A stretch of 64,000 nucleotides of DNA from Aeoliella mucimassa (GTDB taxonomy: Bacteria > Planctomycetota > Planctomycetia > Pirellulales > Lacipirellulaceae). The stretch's first letter is position 1, and each line of letters begins with the position of its first letter. Made by a program: the position numbers and the translations under genes. The stretch lies in assembly GCF_007748035.1 (NCBI RefSeq), contig NZ_CP036278.1, forward strand, positions 2,542,001 to 2,606,000. Reading direction: 5' to 3'. Below, one piece after another: positions 47,438 through 56,189 of the stretch. Under the pieces are notes generated by a model. The model was not told the origin of the DNA, did not search any database, and saw only the letters and a program-made list of their open reading frames with translations.

Positions 47438-50400
47438 TTACTTGCCGGTCATTTCGTACAGCGGCAAGTGTCGATAGCTCACCTCGAGCGACAGCAGATT
47501 CAGGCAGGTGACGTAGAGCCGGCCGCCATGAGCTCCCCACATATCGGGAATCGGCTTCTGTGGATTCCAGCTTCCAGCCAGGGGGCCTTCCTGGGTTTGG
47601 TGGTCGACTAGCAGCGGGTGCAGGTGCTCGTGCCATTGTTGCCAGTTCTCGCCCCCCATGTGGAACATCACCTGCGTTGCGTAGTACCAGTAGTAGGTGT
47701 CGCGCTGCGGGTTGCGAGCGGTACCGACCGGCACCAGCCGGAACTCTCCATCGTGGGTCGGCAAGTTCTCGAGCAGATGCTCGGCCCCCCGCTGCATGAG
47801 CTGCGAGTCGCGATTCTCGCCTAGATAGAGCTTCATCAGCATGCCGACCGCGGTCATTACCGTGCTTGGCTTGTTGTAATGCTTCATGCCATCGCGGGTG
47901 CTGGTGACGTAGGGGTTGTAGCAGTACATGGCTCCCCCGCCAGCCGTGGCCCGGCACTTTTCGACAAACTGCCCGACCCGCCGGTACGTTGGCTGATTGA
48001 CGCTCAGCCCCGCGAGTTCGCCGCTGCGCATGGCCATCATTTGCCACCCGGTGACCGACAGATCGCTGTTGGTGCCTTCGGTATAGCGCCAGCCGTTGTA
48101 GCGTGGGTGTTGGGTTTCGATGATGTAGTTCAGCGCCAGTTGGGCGGGCCGCTCGAGTTCGGGGTCGCCGGTCATGCCGTACGCCTCGCAGAGCGCCAGG
48201 GTAGCGATGCCATGGCTGTAGAACCGGGTCGCTCGCGGGCCTGGCAAATCGCGTTCGGGGAAGATGTCGCCCCGGTCCGATTGCTGGCTCACCAGGTAAT
48301 CGAGACCCCGCTGGATCACGGTGCGGTACTTGTCGTCGTAGTGGTCGTAGCCGCCACCGAGGAACGCGAGCAGCGCTAGTCCAGTAGCGGCTCCGTCGGC
48401 TCGGATGCTTGGTAGTTCGTCGTCGTCCACCGGCAGTCCGGCAAACTCACCGAGCGACCAGCTACCATCCTCGCGTTGCACGCGGGCAAGGAACTCGAGT
48501 CCCAGCTCGATGGCCGCTTCGGTCTTCGGACGGGGATCGGTGGGGCTGGTGATCGGGGCGGCGCTCCGCCGTTCGGAGCGGGCCGCGAACGCGGGGGCTG
48601 GGTTCCGCTTGCGACCCGGCGGAGAGCGATCGCCCCCCTCGGTTTCGTTATCGAATCGGCTGGGAGTCATGCGAAGCGGACTGGCCTGTCGGCGGGCGAC
48701 ACGCTGGGGAATGCCCGCGTCGAGCGTCGGTGCCGCGGCGAGCCCTCCGTCGCCCAGGTCGGCGATGAGCATCGCAGGTCGTTTCGGCGCGACGTCGCGC
48801 ATGCTGTCGGTGGCCGGAGCCGCAGCAACCGCTTGGCTGGTACCCTTACCAGTGGCGGCCGGCGACATCGGTGTCGGCTCGGCGGTGCTTACGATGGCCG
48901 CTGCCGAGGAGCCCCGAGGACCAGCCCCGGCCACACTACCCCCCGAAGGCGATGGTAACGCGACGCTTGGCCCTGCCCCGCGACCGTTGGCCGAGCGGGT
49001 GCGAGCGATGGATCCGCCAGCGCGGGGAGGAGTGGCTCCTTGCACGCTCGAGGAGGCTTCTGGCCCGGTGCTCGGCGAAATGGCCCCGCCGCCCGAGGTA
49101 GCCCCGGCCGGGGCACGAGCCTGCGTGAGTTTACTGGCGTCCGCCCGGTCGGGTCGTCCCGCAGCACTCGGCTGCAGGGCTCCGCCCGATTGGGTCTCGA
49201 CGCGGGCGATCGCGGCGGTGCTCGGCGCGGCGGCACCAGCCGATCCGCTGGCTGGCGGGGCCAACGATACCGACGAGGGCGACATCGCTGCCTGGGCGAT
49301 TCGGCGCGGTCCTAGCCCCCGATTGGTCTCCGGCGCCTGCATCGCCATGCGACCTCCCATCGAGCCGCGTCCCTGCCCTTGCTCGGGAGCGACCTGGGGG
49401 GGTCCCGTGTCGAACTCCGCCTCGCCTTTGGCGGCGGTGATGTCGCCGAGCGTCACGTTGGCGAACTGGCGATCGGTCGCAGCACTGCTCGACGCGCTGA
49501 TGTTGTCGGGCTTGGTTGCCCCAGCGACGTCGGCCATCGGCGTCGGAATCGCGGCGAGGGTCGATTGCGGGGTTGCGGCTGCGGCCCGGCCCTTAGCGAC
49601 CTGGGCGACCGGGTTCGGGGCCAGCGACGGCCCACGTTCGGTTTGCGTGCTGCGGTTGCGTTTGGCCGTGGAACTGGCGAACGGAGCACTACGACTGGCT
49701 GGCGCGGGGGCGTCGCCCACGTTGTTGAGCCCCGAGCCCTGCATGCCGGTTCCCCCGCGAGAGTCGGCCAGCACCCGCGGCGAGGGACTCGTCGACGGAG
49801 TCGGCGTGGTTTGCTGCGGCACCGCGGCCATCACCGACTCAGGCGAGTCGGCAATCGCCTGGGCGATCGACTTACTGGGCGACGCGTTGTTCGCAGGCGT
49901 CGCCGCGGGGTTCGTCATCGCGACGCGAGTCGGGCGACGATCGGACTTCACGCTCGGCGACGGCGTCGCGGTCGACGAGTCTTCCACCGCCTCGGCGATG
50001 TTCGATTGCTGGCGATTCGGTTGCTGCTGCTTGGCCACCGCGGCGGCGATCGGTTCCACCGCCTGATCGGTCGTCGAGGCCGAGCGGGTTTGCTCGGCTG
50101 GCCTGCGCGCGGTCGGCGTGAGTTCCACCGCCTGGGCGACGCTCACCGCGGTGCGGCGATCGAGCGGAGTTGGTGCTGCTGCGGGAGTCATCTCCGGCTC
50201 CCGCGTGTCGCGTCGTGCGACCATGGTTGGCGGAGTCGGTCGCTCAATCTGGGGCTCAGGTGTGTCTTTTTGCGATACTACTGGTTCGCGAGGCCGTTCC
50301 AGCCGCGAGGGCTCGGCCGCTACGCGATTGGTTTCCGGTGTGGTCACGCTCGGCGCGATGCTCGCCAGGGCTGGTTCCACCACCTCGGCGGGCGATTGAC

Positions 50401-51280
50401 GCTGCCGCGGGGTCGGCTCGTTCTGGGCCACCTGCGGGGCGTCGGTGTTCTCGCGGCGAGGAGCATTGGTAGGCGCCGCGGCCGATGCCTGCTCGGGAGC
50501 GGGCGTCGACTCGCTTTGGCTCGGATTCGCTTTGGCCACCTGCGCGGCTGGCGACGGCTCGGCCGACTCCGAAGGGGTCGGCTGCTTCGGGCGTACGATC
50601 GGCTGCGGAGCCGTGGTCGCCAGCGTGGCCGCCTCGGTCTGCCGGCTCTGCTGCCCTGGCGACTCCGCCCGGTGCGCCAGGGCGGTGCGCGGCCGGCGCT
50701 GATTCATCGACTGGGGAGCATCGGTCGAGGCCAGTTCGGGGGCTTCCTGCTGCTCGACACTCTCGGTCGGCGACTCGGCTTTCGATTGCTCGGTTTGGGC
50801 TTCGATTTGTTGGGCGAGCTGCTCGGTAGGTACTGGTTTCTCGTACTCCTGCTGCTCGGTTTCGGGACGCACGATCTCGACCACCTCCGGCAGCTTTTCT
50901 TCTGGCTGCATCACCACTTGTCGATCGATGTCGGTCACCGGTTCGGTAAAGAAGAACATCAGGTTCGACAGCAACAGCACGATCGCCAGCACGGTATGGA
51001 ACACCAGGCTCCAGGCGACCCCGAAGCGTAACCGCTGCTCCATCCACTTGCCCGGTTTGGCAGCCAGCCAGGCCAGTAGTGCCCAGGTGACCGCGACCCC
51101 CATCAGGCGGACCCATGCGTTGTACAGCATCCGCGGGTCTTCCCACCCGCCGAGCGCAAGCACAAGTACCGTGATCAACATCGCCCAGAGCATCAGCACC
51201 CATTGCGTGGTGCTATTACGCTCGTCGAAGGCGTTTGACCGACGTCGCGGCAGTTTGCGAATATTCCGTTGGTTGGGCAT
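47438..51280 (-). CDS. TonB-like N-terminus fused to an alpha/alpha-toroid domain
   Basis: The 1280-residue protein has three parts. Residues 27-45, 57-74 and 88-111 are membrane helices; the third reads WSLVFHTVLAIVLLLSNLMF, containing S91-x3-H95, the SxxxH motif through which TonB senses ExbB/ExbD. It is followed, as in TonB, by a Glu/Pro-rich segment (PEEKLPEVVEIVRPETEQQ). Residues about 140-900 are a disordered Pro/Ala/Ser/Thr-rich linker. Residues about 920-1280 form a prenyltransferase/squalene-cyclase-like alpha/alpha toroid (LEFLARVQREDGSW, GWRYTEGTNSDLSVTGWQMMAM, SWNPQKPIPDMWGAHGGRLY). No TonB C-terminal domain is present. It follows exbD by 16 bases on the same strand. Confidence 0.85.
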   Translation of the reverse strand: MPNQRNIRKLPRRRSNAFDERNSTTQWVLMLWAMLITVLVLALGGWEDPRMLYNAWVRLMGVAVTWALLAWLAAKPGKWMEQRLRFGVAWSLVFHTVLAIVLLLSNLMFFFTEPVTDIDRQVVMQPEEKLPEVVEIVRPETEQQEYEKPVPTEQLAQQIEAQTEQSKAESPTESVEQQEAPELASTDAPQSMNQRRPRTALAHRAESPGQQSRQTEAATLATTAPQPIVRPKQPTPSESAEPSPAAQVAKANPSQSESTPAPEQASAAAPTNAPRRENTDAPQVAQNEPTPRQRQSPAEVVEPALASIAPSVTTPETNRVAAEPSRLERPREPVVSQKDTPEPQIERPTPPTMVARRDTREPEMTPAAAPTPLDRRTAVSVAQAVELTPTARRPAEQTRSASTTDQAVEPIAAAVAKQQQPNRQQSNIAEAVEDSSTATPSPSVKSDRRPTRVAMTNPAATPANNASPSKSIAQAIADSPESVMAAVPQQTTPTPSTSPSPRVLADSRGGTGMQGSGLNNVGDAPAPASRSAPFASSTAKRNRSTQTERGPSLAPNPVAQVAKGRAAAATPQSTLAAIPTPMADVAGATKPDNISASSSAATDRQFANVTLGDITAAKGEAEFDTGPPQVAPEQGQGRGSMGGRMAMQAPETNRGLGPRRIAQAAMSPSSVSLAPPASGSAGAAAPSTAAIARVETQSGGALQPSAAGRPDRADASKLTQARAPAGATSGGGAISPSTGPEASSSVQGATPPRAGGSIARTRSANGRGAGPSVALPSPSGGSVAGAGPRGSSAAAIVSTAEPTPMSPAATGKGTSQAVAAAPATDSMRDVAPKRPAMLIADLGDGGLAAAPTLDAGIPQRVARRQASPLRMTPSRFDNETEGGDRSPPGRKRNPAPAFAARSERRSAAPITSPTDPRPKTEAAIELGLEFLARVQREDGSWSLGEFAGLPVDDDELPSIRADGAATGLALLAFLGGGYDHYDDKYRTVIQRGLDYLVSQQSDRGDIFPERDLPGPRATRFYSHGIATLALCEAYGMTGDPELERPAQLALNYIIETQHPRYNGWRYTEGTNSDLSVTGWQMMAMRSGELAGLSVNQPTYRRVGQFVEKCRATAGGGAMYCYNPYVTSTRDGMKHYNKPSTVMTAVGMLMKLYLGENRDSQLMQRGAEHLLENLPTHDGEFRLVPVGTARNPQRDTYYWYYATQVMFHMGGENWQQWHEHLHPLLVDHQTQEGPLAGSWNPQKPIPDMWGAHGGRLYVTCLNLLSLEVSYRHLPLYEMTGK

Positions 51281-51296: not shown

Positions 51297-51704
51297 CTAT
51301 TCGGTAGCGATGTTGTAATCGCGGATATTCGCCTTGTTACATGCGTTGATCACGGCCACCGCGTTGGCGGTGCGTGAGTCCTGGTCGGCGCGAATGGTCA
51401 CTCGCTGCTTGCCAGGGTTGTTCTCGTAGAGATTTTTCAGCTCGGTTTCCAGCGAGGCCGCCGAGAATTGCTTGCCCTCGATAAAGTAGTCGCCTTCGGC
51501 GTTGATGGTGACAAAAATCTCTTTCCCCTCGAACATGGTCGGCTGCGCGGCGCTCGCCTTCGGCAGATTCACCGCCAGGCTGCGTTCTTCTTCCTCGAAT
51601 CGCGTTGCGACCAGAAAGAAGATCAGCAGCAGGAACACCACATCGATCAGCGGAGTCAGGCTCAGGGTGCTGGCCGAGATTCCTTTTTTGATTTGAACAG
51701 GCAT
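51297..51704 (-). CDS. exbD: ExbD/TolR-family energy-transducing protein
   Basis: The 135-residue protein has one N-terminal membrane helix, LTPLIDVVFLLLIFFLVAT, with the conserved proton-path aspartate at D21, and a periplasmic domain ending in VTIRADQDSRTANAVAVINACNKANI. This is the ExbD/TolR fold. It works with the ExbB-type protein encoded 69 bases upstream to couple the proton gradient to work in the envelope. The last residues are followed after 16 bases by the TonB-like/toroid gene, so the partner is likely that protein. Confidence 0.95.
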   Translation of the reverse strand: MPVQIKKGISASTLSLTPLIDVVFLLLIFFLVATRFEEEERSLAVNLPKASAAQPTMFEGKEIFVTINAEGDYFIEGKQFSAASLETELKNLYENNPGKQRVTIRADQDSRTANAVAVINACNKANIRDYNIATE

Positions 51705-51773: not shown

Positions 51774-52676
51774 TTAATTCTTCGCCGGCGTTGGCTGCAT
51801 ATGCGGGGCGGTCGATTTCGACTTCTCCGGCTCGCTTTCCAGGCGCTGCTTATCGAGTCGCAATTTGCCTTCGTAACGCTCCACCTGCGGCAACAGCGAT
51901 GCGGCCAGGCTCTCGACATTCCGCAGCAGCCGCAAGATGCGACCCTCAAAAAAGTGAGCCAACACCGCAGCGGGGATCGCCACTGCCAGGCCGGCAAACG
52001 TGGTGACCAGCGCGACGTAAATGCCTTGCGCCAAGGCTTCGCCTTTGTTCGACGATTCCGGCAGGTTGGCCGTGACAAAGAACGCCTGAATCATGCCCCA
52101 CACGGTACCCAGCAGGCCTAGCAGCGGGGTGACGCTGGCTGCCAGGTTCAGGGTGCGTACGTTGGAGTACAGCGAGTCGCTCTCGGCCTGACAGGCGTTG
52201 GCCACGGTGGTTTCGACTTCCGCGTGCGGGCGGCCTACCTTCAGCAACATCGCGCGGACCACTCTGGCGGCCGAGCTGGGATATCGCTGGCAGAGCTGAT
52301 ACGCCTGGCGCGGGTCGAACACGCTCGATTCGGCGAGCTTGCCGAGTTGCTGCACAAGTTCCTCGGGGATGATCCGCGACTCTCGCAGCCCGAAGGCACG
52401 CTCGATGCCGATGGCGACCACCAGGATCGACATTAGCACGATCGGGGCCATCAGCCAGCCCCCTTTGGTCAGCAGATCGAACATGCGTACGGTCGGCACG
52501 TCGGAAACTGGCTGCTCGGCGGCCACTTCCGAGTCGGTGGGGCCACTCAGCACCTCGCTCGCCCGATCGTTCGAGGGGCTCTCCTGCGAACCGCCCTGTT
52601 GGGCCCAGGTGGTGGTCGACGCGAGCAGGAAGGTCGCCACGAGACCAACCAACAGGTACGCGAAAAATCGATTCAT
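51774..52676 (-). CDS. exbB: ExbB/TolQ/MotA-family proton channel with signal peptide
   Basis: The 300-residue protein starts at ATG 52676 with a cleavable signal (MNRFFAYLLVGLVATFLLAS, then TTWAQQGG), as in planctomycete ExbB proteins with an extra periplasmic N-terminus. TM segments follow: GGWLMAPIVLMSILVVAIGIERAFG, then TLNLAASVTPLLGLLGTVWGMIQAFF and IYVALVTTFAGLAVAIPAAVLAHFF, which contain the MotA/TolQ/ExbB GLLGTVWGMI motif. It lies between the TPR gene (93 bases upstream) and exbD in one minus-strand cluster. Confidence 0.94.
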   Translation of the reverse strand: MNRFFAYLLVGLVATFLLASTTTWAQQGGSQESPSNDRASEVLSGPTDSEVAAEQPVSDVPTVRMFDLLTKGGWLMAPIVLMSILVVAIGIERAFGLRESRIIPEELVQQLGKLAESSVFDPRQAYQLCQRYPSSAARVVRAMLLKVGRPHAEVETTVANACQAESDSLYSNVRTLNLAASVTPLLGLLGTVWGMIQAFFVTANLPESSNKGEALAQGIYVALVTTFAGLAVAIPAAVLAHFFEGRILRLLRNVESLAASLLPQVERYEGKLRLDKQRLESEPEKSKSTAPHMQPTPAKN

Positions 52677-52769
52677 GGCAGCAAGCGGGGTGGAGAGGAA
52701 AAGTAGCCTGTGACTCACGGAGCGGGAGGAGCGTCATGCTCTCCCATGGCAAGAGATGCGCGAAGGGGG

Positions 52770-55700
52770 CTAAGTGCCCCCTAAACTGTTCAGCCGGTTC
52801 TTGGCAAGCTCGGCCTTGGAGTGCTCGGGGAAGCGTTCCACTAGCTCCGCGTACACCTTTTTGGCTGCCGAACTGCGGTCGAGTTGTTCCAGGCACCGCG
52901 CGGCTTCGAACAGCGATTCGGCCTGCCAGTTGTGGTAGGCCTCGGGGGCCTGGCGGTCGCCATAACCGTAAGCAACGCGGAAGAAGCTGCGAATCGCCGG
53001 CTCGTAGTCCTTCGCGGCGAACTGCAATTCGCCGGTGACGAATCGCGCCCGGGCGCCGAGCGGCGAGGTATCGCGGTCGGCCACTTTCAGCAGCAGCGGC
53101 ATCGCTTCGTCCGGCTTATTCTGCTTGGCCAAGGCCCAGCCGAGTTCGTACTCCACTTCGCTCTGCCCGGCGTAGTCGGGATAGTCGGCGTTAGCTTTCT
53201 TGAGCCACGCGACTGCTTGATCCCATTGCTTGAGCTGATTGGCCGCTTGCCCGGCGTGAAGCATGCCGAGCGGGGCGAGTGACTGGGCCGTGGGCTTGTC
53301 GGCCTTGGCCTCGTCGTACGCGGCCAAGGCTTTCTCGTATTCTTCCAGGGCAAAGAGCGACTCGCCCCGCATCCACTTGGCGTCGGCCGCCAGCGATGCG
53401 GTGGGGTACGCCTGCATTTGCACTTCGAAGCTATCGGCGGCCTGATCGTATTTCTTGTCCTTGAAGCGAGCCCAGGCCAGCATGTGCAGCGCCTTCTCGT
53501 GCAGCTCGGGATCGCTCATGTTGCCATCGGCCGATTTGGCAAACCACTCCGCGGCCGCAGGGAACTCGCCTGCTTCGTAGTGCGACTCGCCGATGCGGAA
53601 CATCGCGTCGCGAGCCAGTGGGCTGTCGGCAAACTGTTCGGCCAGCTTCGTGAACGCCTGTTGCGATTCGGCCGGTTTCTTCGCTTCGCGATAGGCCCAG
53701 CCGAGCTCGTACCACGCCCGATCGCGATCGGTAAACTCGTCGCCGGCGGTGGTGGCAGTGGTGAGTGCGGCGATAGCTTCGTCCCATTTCTCAAGGCCGG
53801 CCAGGCTGGTGCCGCGGGCCAAGGCGACCTGAGGATTCTTGCCATCCATGCCGGCCAAAGCTTTCAGCGCTTCGGTATGCTTGCCGGCCTGAGCCAGCGA
53901 ACTGGCTTGCCCCATCTGCCCTTCGCGGGCGAGGGCGTGATCGGGGTATTCGGTCGCTAGCTTGGCAAACCGCTCCGCGGCCGCGGCGGCCTGATCGCTG
54001 TTGAGCAGCAATCGTGCCGCGCGATAGCCGGCGTACGGAGCCAGCGGGTGCTTGGCTGCGGTGGCTACCACCTGGTCGTAATCGGCGATGGCCGCTTCGG
54101 CGTTGCCCGCTTTCTCGTTGGCTTCGCCCCGTCGGTAATAGGCCTGGGCCAGCATCGTGGCTTCGGGCTGCGAGTCGATGAGCGACGTTAGCGAAGCGAT
54201 CGCTGCATCCAACTCCCCAGCGGCGGCTTGCGAGCGGCCAGTAATCAACTTGGCTTCAGCGGTCCAGTTGCTCGGAGGATCGAGCGCGGCGACTGCTTTC
54301 AGGGCTTCGATCGCCTGAGGATACTGTTTGAGGCGGTAATTCGCGCGACCCACGAGGAACTGGGCCTGCTGGCCATCGCTGCTGTCGGCCGCTGCGTTGA
54401 GCGGTTGGAGCGTGGTGAGCACTGCTTGCTCGTCGCCAGCGGTACTATGGGCCCACGCTTTGCGAACGCTCCAGGCCAGGCGATGCTCGTCGTCGGCCGA
54501 CTTCAGTAGCTCGGCAAACGTGGTTGCAGCTGCCTGAGCCTCGCCGGCTCGCAGCTGGGCCTCGGCCAGGGTGAGTTGGGCGTCGCCGACAAAGCTCGAA
54601 TCGCCATACTTGGCGATCACTTGCTCGGCGTATTGCTTGGCCTTGGCAAAGTCCTGCAATTCCAGCGCGGTCGCGGCTGCCAGGTAGAATCCCTCGGCGG
54701 CCACTTCGCCTTCGCCGGCCGCTGCGGCCGCTGCGTAGACATCTACCGACGCGGCTCGCTGGTTATCGAGGGCATACATCGCATCGGCCTTGGCCAGCAT
54801 CAATTCGGGCGAGCTGGTTTTGGCCAGCGCCTGGTCGGCGGCCGCCAAGGCCTTTTCGGCCGAGCTGGCTTCGATCAGCGCCCGGACCCACCAGTGGGCC
54901 AGGTCGGCATCTTCTGGCTTGGCCTGGTAGGCAGTGCCAAGTTTCTCGGCCGCCTGGGCGTACGACTGAGCTTGGTAGAGGGCTTTGCCAGCCGAGGCGA
55001 CGTCGCCAAGTTGCTCGTAGGCCTCTGCGGCTTGTTGGTACTCGCCGGCGTTGAACAGGGCGCTGGCTCGGGCCGAGCGGGCAAAGTTGGCGTCCATCAG
55101 CGCGTCGCCCTTCGTCAGGGCTTCGCCGTAACGTGTGGCGGCTTCCTGATAACGACCCGCGGCCGAGAGGGCATCGCCCAGGCGCACGAGCGCTTCGCCA
55201 GCGACGACAGGTTCGGGGTTAGTGGACAGTAGCGTCTCGAGCGACTTGATTGCCTCGTCGGCGTCGCCGGTTTCGTTCAAGGCCACCGACAACGCTAATC
55301 GCACGTCGCCTGCCAAGGGACTGTCGCCATGCTTCTGAAGCCATTCGCGGTAGGCCTTTACCGCGTTCTCGGTTTGCCCCAAAGCGTACAGCGACTCGGC
55401 CCGGTAATAGTCGGCCTGCGGGGCGAGCTTGCTAGTGGGGAACTCCTTACGCAGCCGATCGAACGCGGCAACCGCCTGCTGGTAAGCGGTGTTCGCCGGG
55501 TTGCCTTCGAGCGCCTGGGCCTGGTTGTAAGCGGCCAGCCCCATGTTGGTGAGCGTCGCTTCGGTCAGCTCATGCTTGGGATATTTTTTCAGAAAAGTTT
55601 CGAACGATTGAATCGCTTCGGGGTACTTACCCAGTTGAAACTGGCACACACCCGCATGGTGCCAACCGCTGGCCGCGAGCGCGTCGTCGGCATGCTTGGT

Positions 55701-55877
55701 GGCCAGGCGTTGCCATTCGGTGAGCGCCAGATCGTACTGCTCGAGCTTCTGGTAGCGGGCCGCGAGATTGTAATTCTCGATCGCGTCGGCCGACGATTGC
55801 CCCAGCGAGGCTTGGGCCCCAAGCAGTAAAAAGCTTACAGCTAGCGGGAAAAGTGCCAATCCGCTTCGCAAATTCAT
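52770..55877 (-). CDS. giant periplasmic TPR protein of the ExbB/D cluster
   Basis: From ATG 55877 the product is 1035 residues with a signal peptide (MNLRSGLALFPLAVSFLLLG, then AQASLGQ). Nearly the whole mature protein is tetratricopeptide repeats, for example YNLAARYQKLEQYDLALTEW, AGVCQFQLGKYPEAIQSFE, and many Ala-rich A-W-Y-x2-G-x-A-x2-A copies up to the C-terminus. This gives a superhelical scaffold for protein-protein contacts in the periplasm. It is the first gene of the cluster with exbB, exbD and the TonB-like/toroid gene, so it probably belongs to the same machine. It is divergent from the pseudopilin gene. Confidence 0.9.
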   Translation of the reverse strand: MNLRSGLALFPLAVSFLLLGAQASLGQSSADAIENYNLAARYQKLEQYDLALTEWQRLATKHADDALAASGWHHAGVCQFQLGKYPEAIQSFETFLKKYPKHELTEATLTNMGLAAYNQAQALEGNPANTAYQQAVAAFDRLRKEFPTSKLAPQADYYRAESLYALGQTENAVKAYREWLQKHGDSPLAGDVRLALSVALNETGDADEAIKSLETLLSTNPEPVVAGEALVRLGDALSAAGRYQEAATRYGEALTKGDALMDANFARSARASALFNAGEYQQAAEAYEQLGDVASAGKALYQAQSYAQAAEKLGTAYQAKPEDADLAHWWVRALIEASSAEKALAAADQALAKTSSPELMLAKADAMYALDNQRAASVDVYAAAAAAGEGEVAAEGFYLAAATALELQDFAKAKQYAEQVIAKYGDSSFVGDAQLTLAEAQLRAGEAQAAATTFAELLKSADDEHRLAWSVRKAWAHSTAGDEQAVLTTLQPLNAAADSSDGQQAQFLVGRANYRLKQYPQAIEALKAVAALDPPSNWTAEAKLITGRSQAAAGELDAAIASLTSLIDSQPEATMLAQAYYRRGEANEKAGNAEAAIADYDQVVATAAKHPLAPYAGYRAARLLLNSDQAAAAAERFAKLATEYPDHALAREGQMGQASSLAQAGKHTEALKALAGMDGKNPQVALARGTSLAGLEKWDEAIAALTTATTAGDEFTDRDRAWYELGWAYREAKKPAESQQAFTKLAEQFADSPLARDAMFRIGESHYEAGEFPAAAEWFAKSADGNMSDPELHEKALHMLAWARFKDKKYDQAADSFEVQMQAYPTASLAADAKWMRGESLFALEEYEKALAAYDEAKADKPTAQSLAPLGMLHAGQAANQLKQWDQAVAWLKKANADYPDYAGQSEVEYELGWALAKQNKPDEAMPLLLKVADRDTSPLGARARFVTGELQFAAKDYEPAIRSFFRVAYGYGDRQAPEAYHNWQAESLFEAARCLEQLDRSSAAKKVYAELVERFPEHSKAELAKNRLNSLGGT

Positions 55878-56189
55878 AATCGAACCCAATCGTCCAAGAA
55901 TGGTTGATCGCTTGTAAAGTGCCATGATGGTGGATCGTGCAACCGAAGTGCACTTCCTTTCTCCTATTCGTAGGCAATCCCCCAATTATCGCCGGTTACT
56001 GCAGATGATCCAGGTGATCTGCCACTTTGTCACCAAGTTTTCTGCTGTCTCCCGCCGTTGGAGCGACGGGGCTAACTATTCCCAACTCTTTCTTGACAAA
56101 CATCTTACGTCGGGTTGCAATAGGATGTGTAGCGGTAGCCCGCCTTAGGGGCTCGAAGCGGGCAGCCACAGAGAATCGAGGTAATCCAG
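55878..56189. other. divergent promoter region of TPR and pseudopilin genes
   Basis: This 312-base region separates the divergent genes. A promoter-like element for the plus strand is annotated separately. Nothing else definite is seen. Confidence 0.5.
56093..56121 (+). promoter_or_regulatory. candidate sigma70-type promoter of the pseudopilin gene
   Basis: TTGACA at 56093-56098 is a perfect -35 box; after exactly 17 bases TGCAAT at 56116-56121 matches the -10 consensus at four of six positions. Transcription would start near 56128, about 60 bases before the GTG start codon of the pseudopilin gene. Confidence 0.55.

Follow-up and report, generated by a model that had tools for sequence, protein, structure and literature searches.

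Can the ExbB-ExbD motor drive a transducer that ends in an alpha/alpha toroid where TonB carries its C-terminal domain? A gene of Aeoliella mucimassa (Planctomycetota; Lacipirellulaceae) raises this question. It lies in the 64,000-nucleotide stretch analyzed here (the window; NCBI RefSeq assembly GCF_007748035.1, contig NZ_CP036278.1, positions 2,542,001 to 2,606,000 of the forward strand), and a preliminary description, made from the sequence alone, had read its product, P0001, as a TonB-like energy transducer coupled to ExbBD. We followed up this reading with structure prediction, motif counts, profile searches and comparison among planctomycete genomes, and we consider it likely that the operon encodes an envelope machine of the Ton/Tol kind, driven by the proton motive force, in which the toroid protein is the transducer.

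The open reading frame (ORF) encoding P0001 starts with ATG and is transcribed last, in the order tetratricopeptide repeat (TPR) protein, exbB, exbD, toroid gene (Table 1). It follows exbD after a gap of exactly 16 bases, as had been described, and the gene downstream of it is in convergent orientation. Hydropathy placed membrane segments of P0001 at residues ~27-45, 55-73 and 92-110, and an AlphaFold2 model of residues 1-170 (mean predicted local distance difference test score, pLDDT, 76) contained helices at 18-43, 55-74 and 80-112. The pentapeptide SLVFH, a match to the SxxxH motif of TonB, sits in the N-terminal part of the third helix; relative to the pattern SHLS, Leu102 occupies the L position and Asn106 the last S position. 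The N terminus of the protein would be cytoplasmic, and the SLVFH end of the third helix would lie on the same side. Positive-inside counts were clear for toroid proteins not linked to exbD (25 of 33) and weak for linked ones when Lys and Arg alone were counted (30 vs 22), where net charge fell from +2.8 before the helix to -0.3 after it. The linker that follows consists of 802 low-complexity residues (Ala 18%, Pro 13%, Ser 10.5%) free of hydrophobic stretches, with its first 100 residues rich in Glu, Gln and Pro. Residues 915-1280 were predicted to fold as an alpha/alpha toroid (AlphaFold2 pLDDT 90.4, predicted template modeling score 0.92), and a Pfam scan of P0001 found no TonB_C. The order of parts given in the preliminary description, with a Glu/Pro-rich stretch and a very long linker leading to a terpene-cyclase-like end that is not the TonB fold, was therefore borne out.

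In order to evaluate the SxxxH motif, we gathered toroid proteins from A. mucimassa, from other members of its order and class, from more distant families and from 80 named loci; all of these loci are titled planctomycetes save one titled "bacterium", with Blastopirellula marina DSM 3645, strain K23_9 and Stieleria tagensis among them. This search for conserved toroid genes adjacent to exbD, which the preliminary description had proposed, yielded 64 non-redundant linked proteins, in which the motif was scored near the start of the last helix before the toroid. All 64 possessed at least one membrane helix, and 61 contained [SGAC]xxxH, 46 of them as SxxxH; the count rose to 63 if Asn was allowed in place of His. 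Among 1517 predicted helices in other ORFs of at least 200 amino acids from the same loci, SxxxH occurred in 10 and [SGAC]xxxH in 56, and at least four of those 10 belong to TonB, two vWA proteins and a laminin-G-like transducer. The motif position is thus conserved far above background in the toroid homologs, which supports the ExbBD-coupled reading. In an N-terminal alignment of 44 linked proteins with a mean column identity of 31%, only the His column and one other reached 90% conservation. Where a residue aligned at this position in toroid proteins, linked or not, it was His in 90 of 96 and Asn in 6, in a model built from motif-bearing proteins using [HN], in which proteins with neither appear as gaps (1 linked, 7 unlinked). 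Asn reportedly replaces TonB His20 fully, to go by the title of Swayne and Postle's 2011 paper as cited in PMC8928145. Between P0001 and its congener the third helix was only 48% identical, with Ser and His unchanged. One exbD-adjacent toroid protein (L120:5403-9077) has an N terminus without an SxxxH helix and may be degenerate or have a misjudged start.

Table 1. Features of the toroid transducer operon (positions within the window).
Feature	Positions	Strand	Basis
Toroid transducer gene, P0001	47438..51280	-	1280-amino-acid ORF
Membrane helices 1 and 2, residues ~27-45 and 55-74	51059..51202	-	Hydropathy, AlphaFold2
Third helix with SxxxH, residues 80-112	50945..51043	-	AlphaFold2
SLVFH, residues 91-95	50996..51010	-	Sequence, homolog conservation
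Juxtamembrane element, VVEIVR (133-138) then EYEKPV (145-150)	50831..50884	-	Motif counts in linkers
Low-complexity linker, residues 113-914	48539..50944	-	Composition
C-terminal alpha/alpha toroid, residues 915-1280	47441..48538	-	AlphaFold2, Foldseek
exbD, with proton-carrying Asp21	51297..51704	-	Pfam ExbD, E 7.9e-28
exbB/tolQ-like gene, with Thr205, Thr240, Pro198, Pro249 and Ser97 of transmembrane helix 1	51774..52718	-	MotA_ExbB, 6e-25
Large TPR protein with apparent signal peptide, first gene of the operon	52770..55985	-	Library searches

The C-terminal ~366 residues matched squalene/hopene cyclases weakly (PF13243, 26.0 bits vs a cutoff of 26.1), and NCBIfam TIGR01787 matched the same end of P0001 at 8e-7. 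The top Foldseek match was a one-domain squalene-hopene cyclase (8paj; TMq 0.64, E 9e-8), with glucose-2-epimerase, GH76 and the terpene cyclase MstE among further neighbors, all at ~10-16% identity, and a PDB sequence search with the toroid returned nothing meaningful. Across 75 toroid relatives, 73 positions reached at least 93% conservation. Most of them lie on inner helices or in the loops that join helices (34 of 96 inner-helix positions vs 9 of 87 on outer helices), and the conserved residues are largely aromatic or polar (W27, Y107, H109, W150-R151-Y152, D159, Y282-Y286, W324 and R340). Because these positions are mostly inner and of this character, they suggest a working pocket in the predicted fold. 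Comparison with the nearest congener showed that the strongest purifying selection in P0001 falls on the toroid, which was 84% identical with a ratio of nonsynonymous to synonymous substitution (dN/dS) of 0.10, relative to 60% and 0.22 for the linker. Such selection, together with the concentration of aromatic and polar residues on the inner helices and the sugar 2-epimerases, GH76 enzymes and terpene cyclases among the structural neighbors, would also fit a toroid that does not hook mechanically onto an outer-membrane partner and instead serves as an ExbBD-anchored enzyme or glycan-binding receptor, with the motor powering or regulating its gating or substrate handling. We consider this unlikely, as no known catalytic motif is conserved in the domain; it is moreover compatible with a motor-driven transducer, since pulling could act equally on an end that binds a ligand.

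The two motor proteins retain key residues, among them those of the proton path. ExbD Asp21 and ExbB Thr205, Thr240, Pro198 and Pro249 were each kept in at least 90% of 52 linked pairs, and the spacings Pro198-Thr205 (seven) and Thr240-Pro249 (nine) equal those of Pro141-Thr148 and Thr181-Pro190, residues of Escherichia coli ExbB named in a cryo-EM study (PMC12215075). The solved relatives of the operon's ExbB are TolQ and ExbB, and those of its ExbD are ExbD and TolR. In E. coli, ExbB Ser34 contacts TonB Ser16 and His20, as does its partner Trp38 (PMC12215075), and the conserved Ser97 in the first transmembrane helix of the operon's ExbB may be the match of Ser34.

We compared the toroid-protein helices with those of known transducers by searching 6050 ORFs, together with the N termini of E. 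coli TonB and TolA, with a 40-residue hidden Markov model (HMM) of the linked-toroid helix. In their helix parts, the two E. coli sequences used match those shown in PMC12215075. The top non-toroid match was E. coli TolA (E 0.0066; next 0.53). A corresponding model of the unlinked-toroid helix matched only two non-toroid proteins below 0.1, L052:8329-9333 (8e-5) and L120:15772-16857 (0.021), both of them vWA proteins with SxxxH helices that belong to, or are related to, the published vWA force transducers described below. On this short and weak signal, the toroid-protein helix resembles known or proposed force-transducer helices and may share ancestry with those of the Ton/Tol systems. Beyond the helix, ~38-55 residues past the His, many linked proteins carry a strand-like run followed by [DE][FWY]xxP[VIL] (EYEKPV in P0001). 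This pattern occurred in 28 of 63 windows covering the first 70 residues of the linkers vs 3 of 3498 windows taken from the remainder of those linkers, a clearer result than Chou-Fasman strand propensity, which gave only a hint when used by itself (f<0.2 in 34 of 63 linkers). In Ton/Tol systems, a strand that follows the helix has been termed the "motor box" and is believed to bind the ExbD or TolR dimer (main text of PMC12204202). The juxtamembrane element may be its counterpart, although the isolated AlphaFold2 model of residues 1-170 contained no strand at VVEIVR/EYEKPV.

In the mechanism that we propose, ExbB and ExbD would form the inner-membrane motor and the third helix would dock on the outside of ExbB through Ser91 and His95, in the fashion of TonB, while the strand and EYxxPV element at the start of the linker may dock on ExbD. 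The long disordered linker would cross the periplasm and bear the folded toroid, which would stand in for the C-terminal domain of TonB or TolA and hold or act on a partner in the periplasm, cell wall or outer membrane, or on a glycan; the co-encoded exported TPR protein is the first candidate for such a partner. By analogy with TonB and TolA, we infer that docking on ExbB is accompanied by energization and that force or motion is passed along the linker to the toroid. An enlarged periplasm has been described for planctomycetes (PMC11958385), and the long linkers of the exbD-linked homologs (178-1820 amino acids) would suit it.

Several observations weigh against this mechanism. A counterpart of Trp38 was not evident in the operon's ExbB, where Val101 stands at the matching spacing in an alignment that is not rigorous; the helix HMM did not separate E. 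coli TonB from background; and, relative to TonB, the linked toroid proteins have an additional one or two helices at the N terminus. Many toroid homologs have no adjoining motor gene, and outside the order and class of A. mucimassa few toroids were seen next to exbD. At a minimum of four loci (L079, L104, L109 and L112) exbD is paired directly with the toroid gene with no recognized exbB adjacent, and the motor pentamer may there be encoded elsewhere. Such pairs, and the fact that docking and energization are inseparable from sequence, leave some room for an SxxxH helix that merely assembles the protein on ExbBD as a scaffold or sensor regulating the motor, with no force reaching the toroid. 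We judge this quite improbable, as the proton-flow residues of the motor are conserved and the parts follow one another as they do in TonB, TolA and the vWA transducers.

P0001 is not isolated and belongs to a phylum-wide family. Toroid matches (E<=1e-10) were present in 256 of 294 genomes across Planctomycetota, and close orthologs (E<=1e-82) in 62 of 119 genomes of the order. The four-gene operon was seen within the same genus, family and order, and all four genes were present in the nearest congener and in another four genomes of the family; a TPR homolog lay upstream at 39 of the 51 linked loci with enough upstream DNA. A quick tree placed most linked toroids in two clades, the larger of which holds the gene of the window, and the smaller, of two-helix proteins, includes a second A. 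mucimassa toroid (locus L051) beside its own exbBD. Homologs occurring without exbBD had been named as a finding that would speak against a TonB-like role, and many were indeed unlinked. Most of these are proteins of ~500-770 amino acids with a single helix and a linker of ~100-120 residues. Of the 40 with a helix, however, 29 kept SxxxH and 33 had His or Asn, several of the exceptions resembled signal peptides, and the pattern W-[LM]-[IVL]-S-xxx-H recurred among distant families. Their neighborhoods, compared by eye, had no common neighbor gene, and the A. mucimassa genome holds ten ExbD matches. The simplest reading is that the unlinked proteins are relatives that borrow motors encoded elsewhere, in trans, and do not contradict a TonB-like role. 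A more tentative extension, which we regard as possible and on balance doubtful, is that toroid-ended proteins constitute the main class of ExbBD-driven force transducer in Planctomycetota, with long-linker branches in exbBD operons and phylum-wide short-linker paralogs sharing motors in trans, working or pulling on a glycan- or protein-binding toroid in the enlarged periplasm, perhaps in macromolecule uptake, and largely replacing TonB. In six unlinked toroids (L036, L058, L139, L140, L142 and L148), the SxxxH helix is preceded by a zinc-ribbon-like motif (ACACPxCxxPMSIRLW...ADCxRCG) at the cytoplasmic start of the protein.

Among known systems, TonB-ExbB-ExbD shares with this operon the SxxxH that opens an in-to-out helix, the proline-rich linker, and the adjacent ExbB and ExbD with their proton-path Asp and Thr residues; it differs in ending with TonB_C rather than a toroid, in linker length, and in having no TPR gene in the operon. 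Because TonB_C is absent, P0001 is not TonB. TolA-TolQ-TolR offers the closest helix in the HMM test, and the exported TPR protein may be compared to CpoB of Tol-Pal, but the Pfam scan of P0001 found no TolA C-terminal domain and the gene content of the window and loci showed neither tolB nor pal in the operon, so P0001 is not TolA. TonB-like transducers with a vWA end were published in 2025 for bacteria of the Planctomycetes-Verrucomicrobia-Chlamydiae group, including planctomycetes (PMC12204202). As their main text presents them, these have an SHLS-type helix, a disordered linker, a globular end other than that of TonB, tolQ- and tolR-like genes and an upstream TPR gene, as here, and they differ in the vWA end, a linker of ~100 amino acids and paired tolR-like genes. 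P0001 gave no vWA match in the Pfam scan and is not one of them. The preliminary description needs correcting in that the vWA transducers are a precedent for ends other than that of TonB. The main text of PMC12204202 makes no mention of toroid, squalene or prenyltransferase ends, and a search of the freely accessible literature for toroid or prenyltransferase together with ExbD and planctomycetes returned nothing. One-domain class II terpene and squalene-hopene cyclases (8paj, MstE) share the alpha/alpha toroid fold (TM-score ~0.6) at ~15% identity. DxDD was rejected as a catalytic mark of the toroid, its matches being scattered through a minority of the 75 relatives at no single site. That P0001 is a membrane-tethered isoprenoid or terpene cyclase adjoining exbBD by chance, as the family matches and the top fold match might imply, can be set aside as highly improbable, since this acid motif is unconserved, the second cyclase domain is absent, and the protein has a long linker, a conserved motor-type helix and an operon shared with motor genes at 52 loci. 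P0001 is accordingly no proven cyclase, and the toroid protein probably works like the Ton/Tol transducers.

The A. mucimassa genome encodes a single TonB_C protein, which carries SVCLH and lies elsewhere, and a vWA protein with STLIH in an exbBD cluster. A third protein (L053:6435-8960, minus strand; 841 amino acids) has an SVLIH helix at its very N terminus, 4 bases after exbD, and a weak laminin-G/ConA-lectin match in its middle; it is possibly a further type of transducer end. Because one genome thus has SxxxH on TonB, vWA and laminin-G-like proteins, their sequences suggest that these ends and the toroid are interchangeable, and that the TonB/TolA helix serves as a general plug for the motor, bearing unrelated ends, all four of them in one genome. 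The toroid itself occurs in most sampled genomes of a phylum whose polysaccharide uptake is unexplained. The idea of a motor-coupled toroid is directly testable, because genes can be deleted in Stieleria maiorica and Planctopirus limnophila (PMC11958385) and the operon is present in a Stieleria species, S. tagensis.

The TPR ORF (1071 amino acids) opens at TTG, and its true start is likely Met21 or Met37. Zorya defence was rejected as a candidate system for the operon: PADLOC gave a weak ZorA match to ExbB alone (E 5e-4), with none found for ZorB or for ZorC/ZorD or ZorE. Elsewhere in the A. mucimassa genome, exbB and two exbD genes stand beside opposite-strand genes that, by eye, resemble a flagellar or type III export apparatus (L055:4703-6595). 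At another locus (L054:4857-10018), exbB and two exbD genes are followed by a 1092-amino-acid protein with a PQQ/BamB-like propeller, with a divergent toroid, itself bearing a signal peptide, immediately upstream of the cluster.

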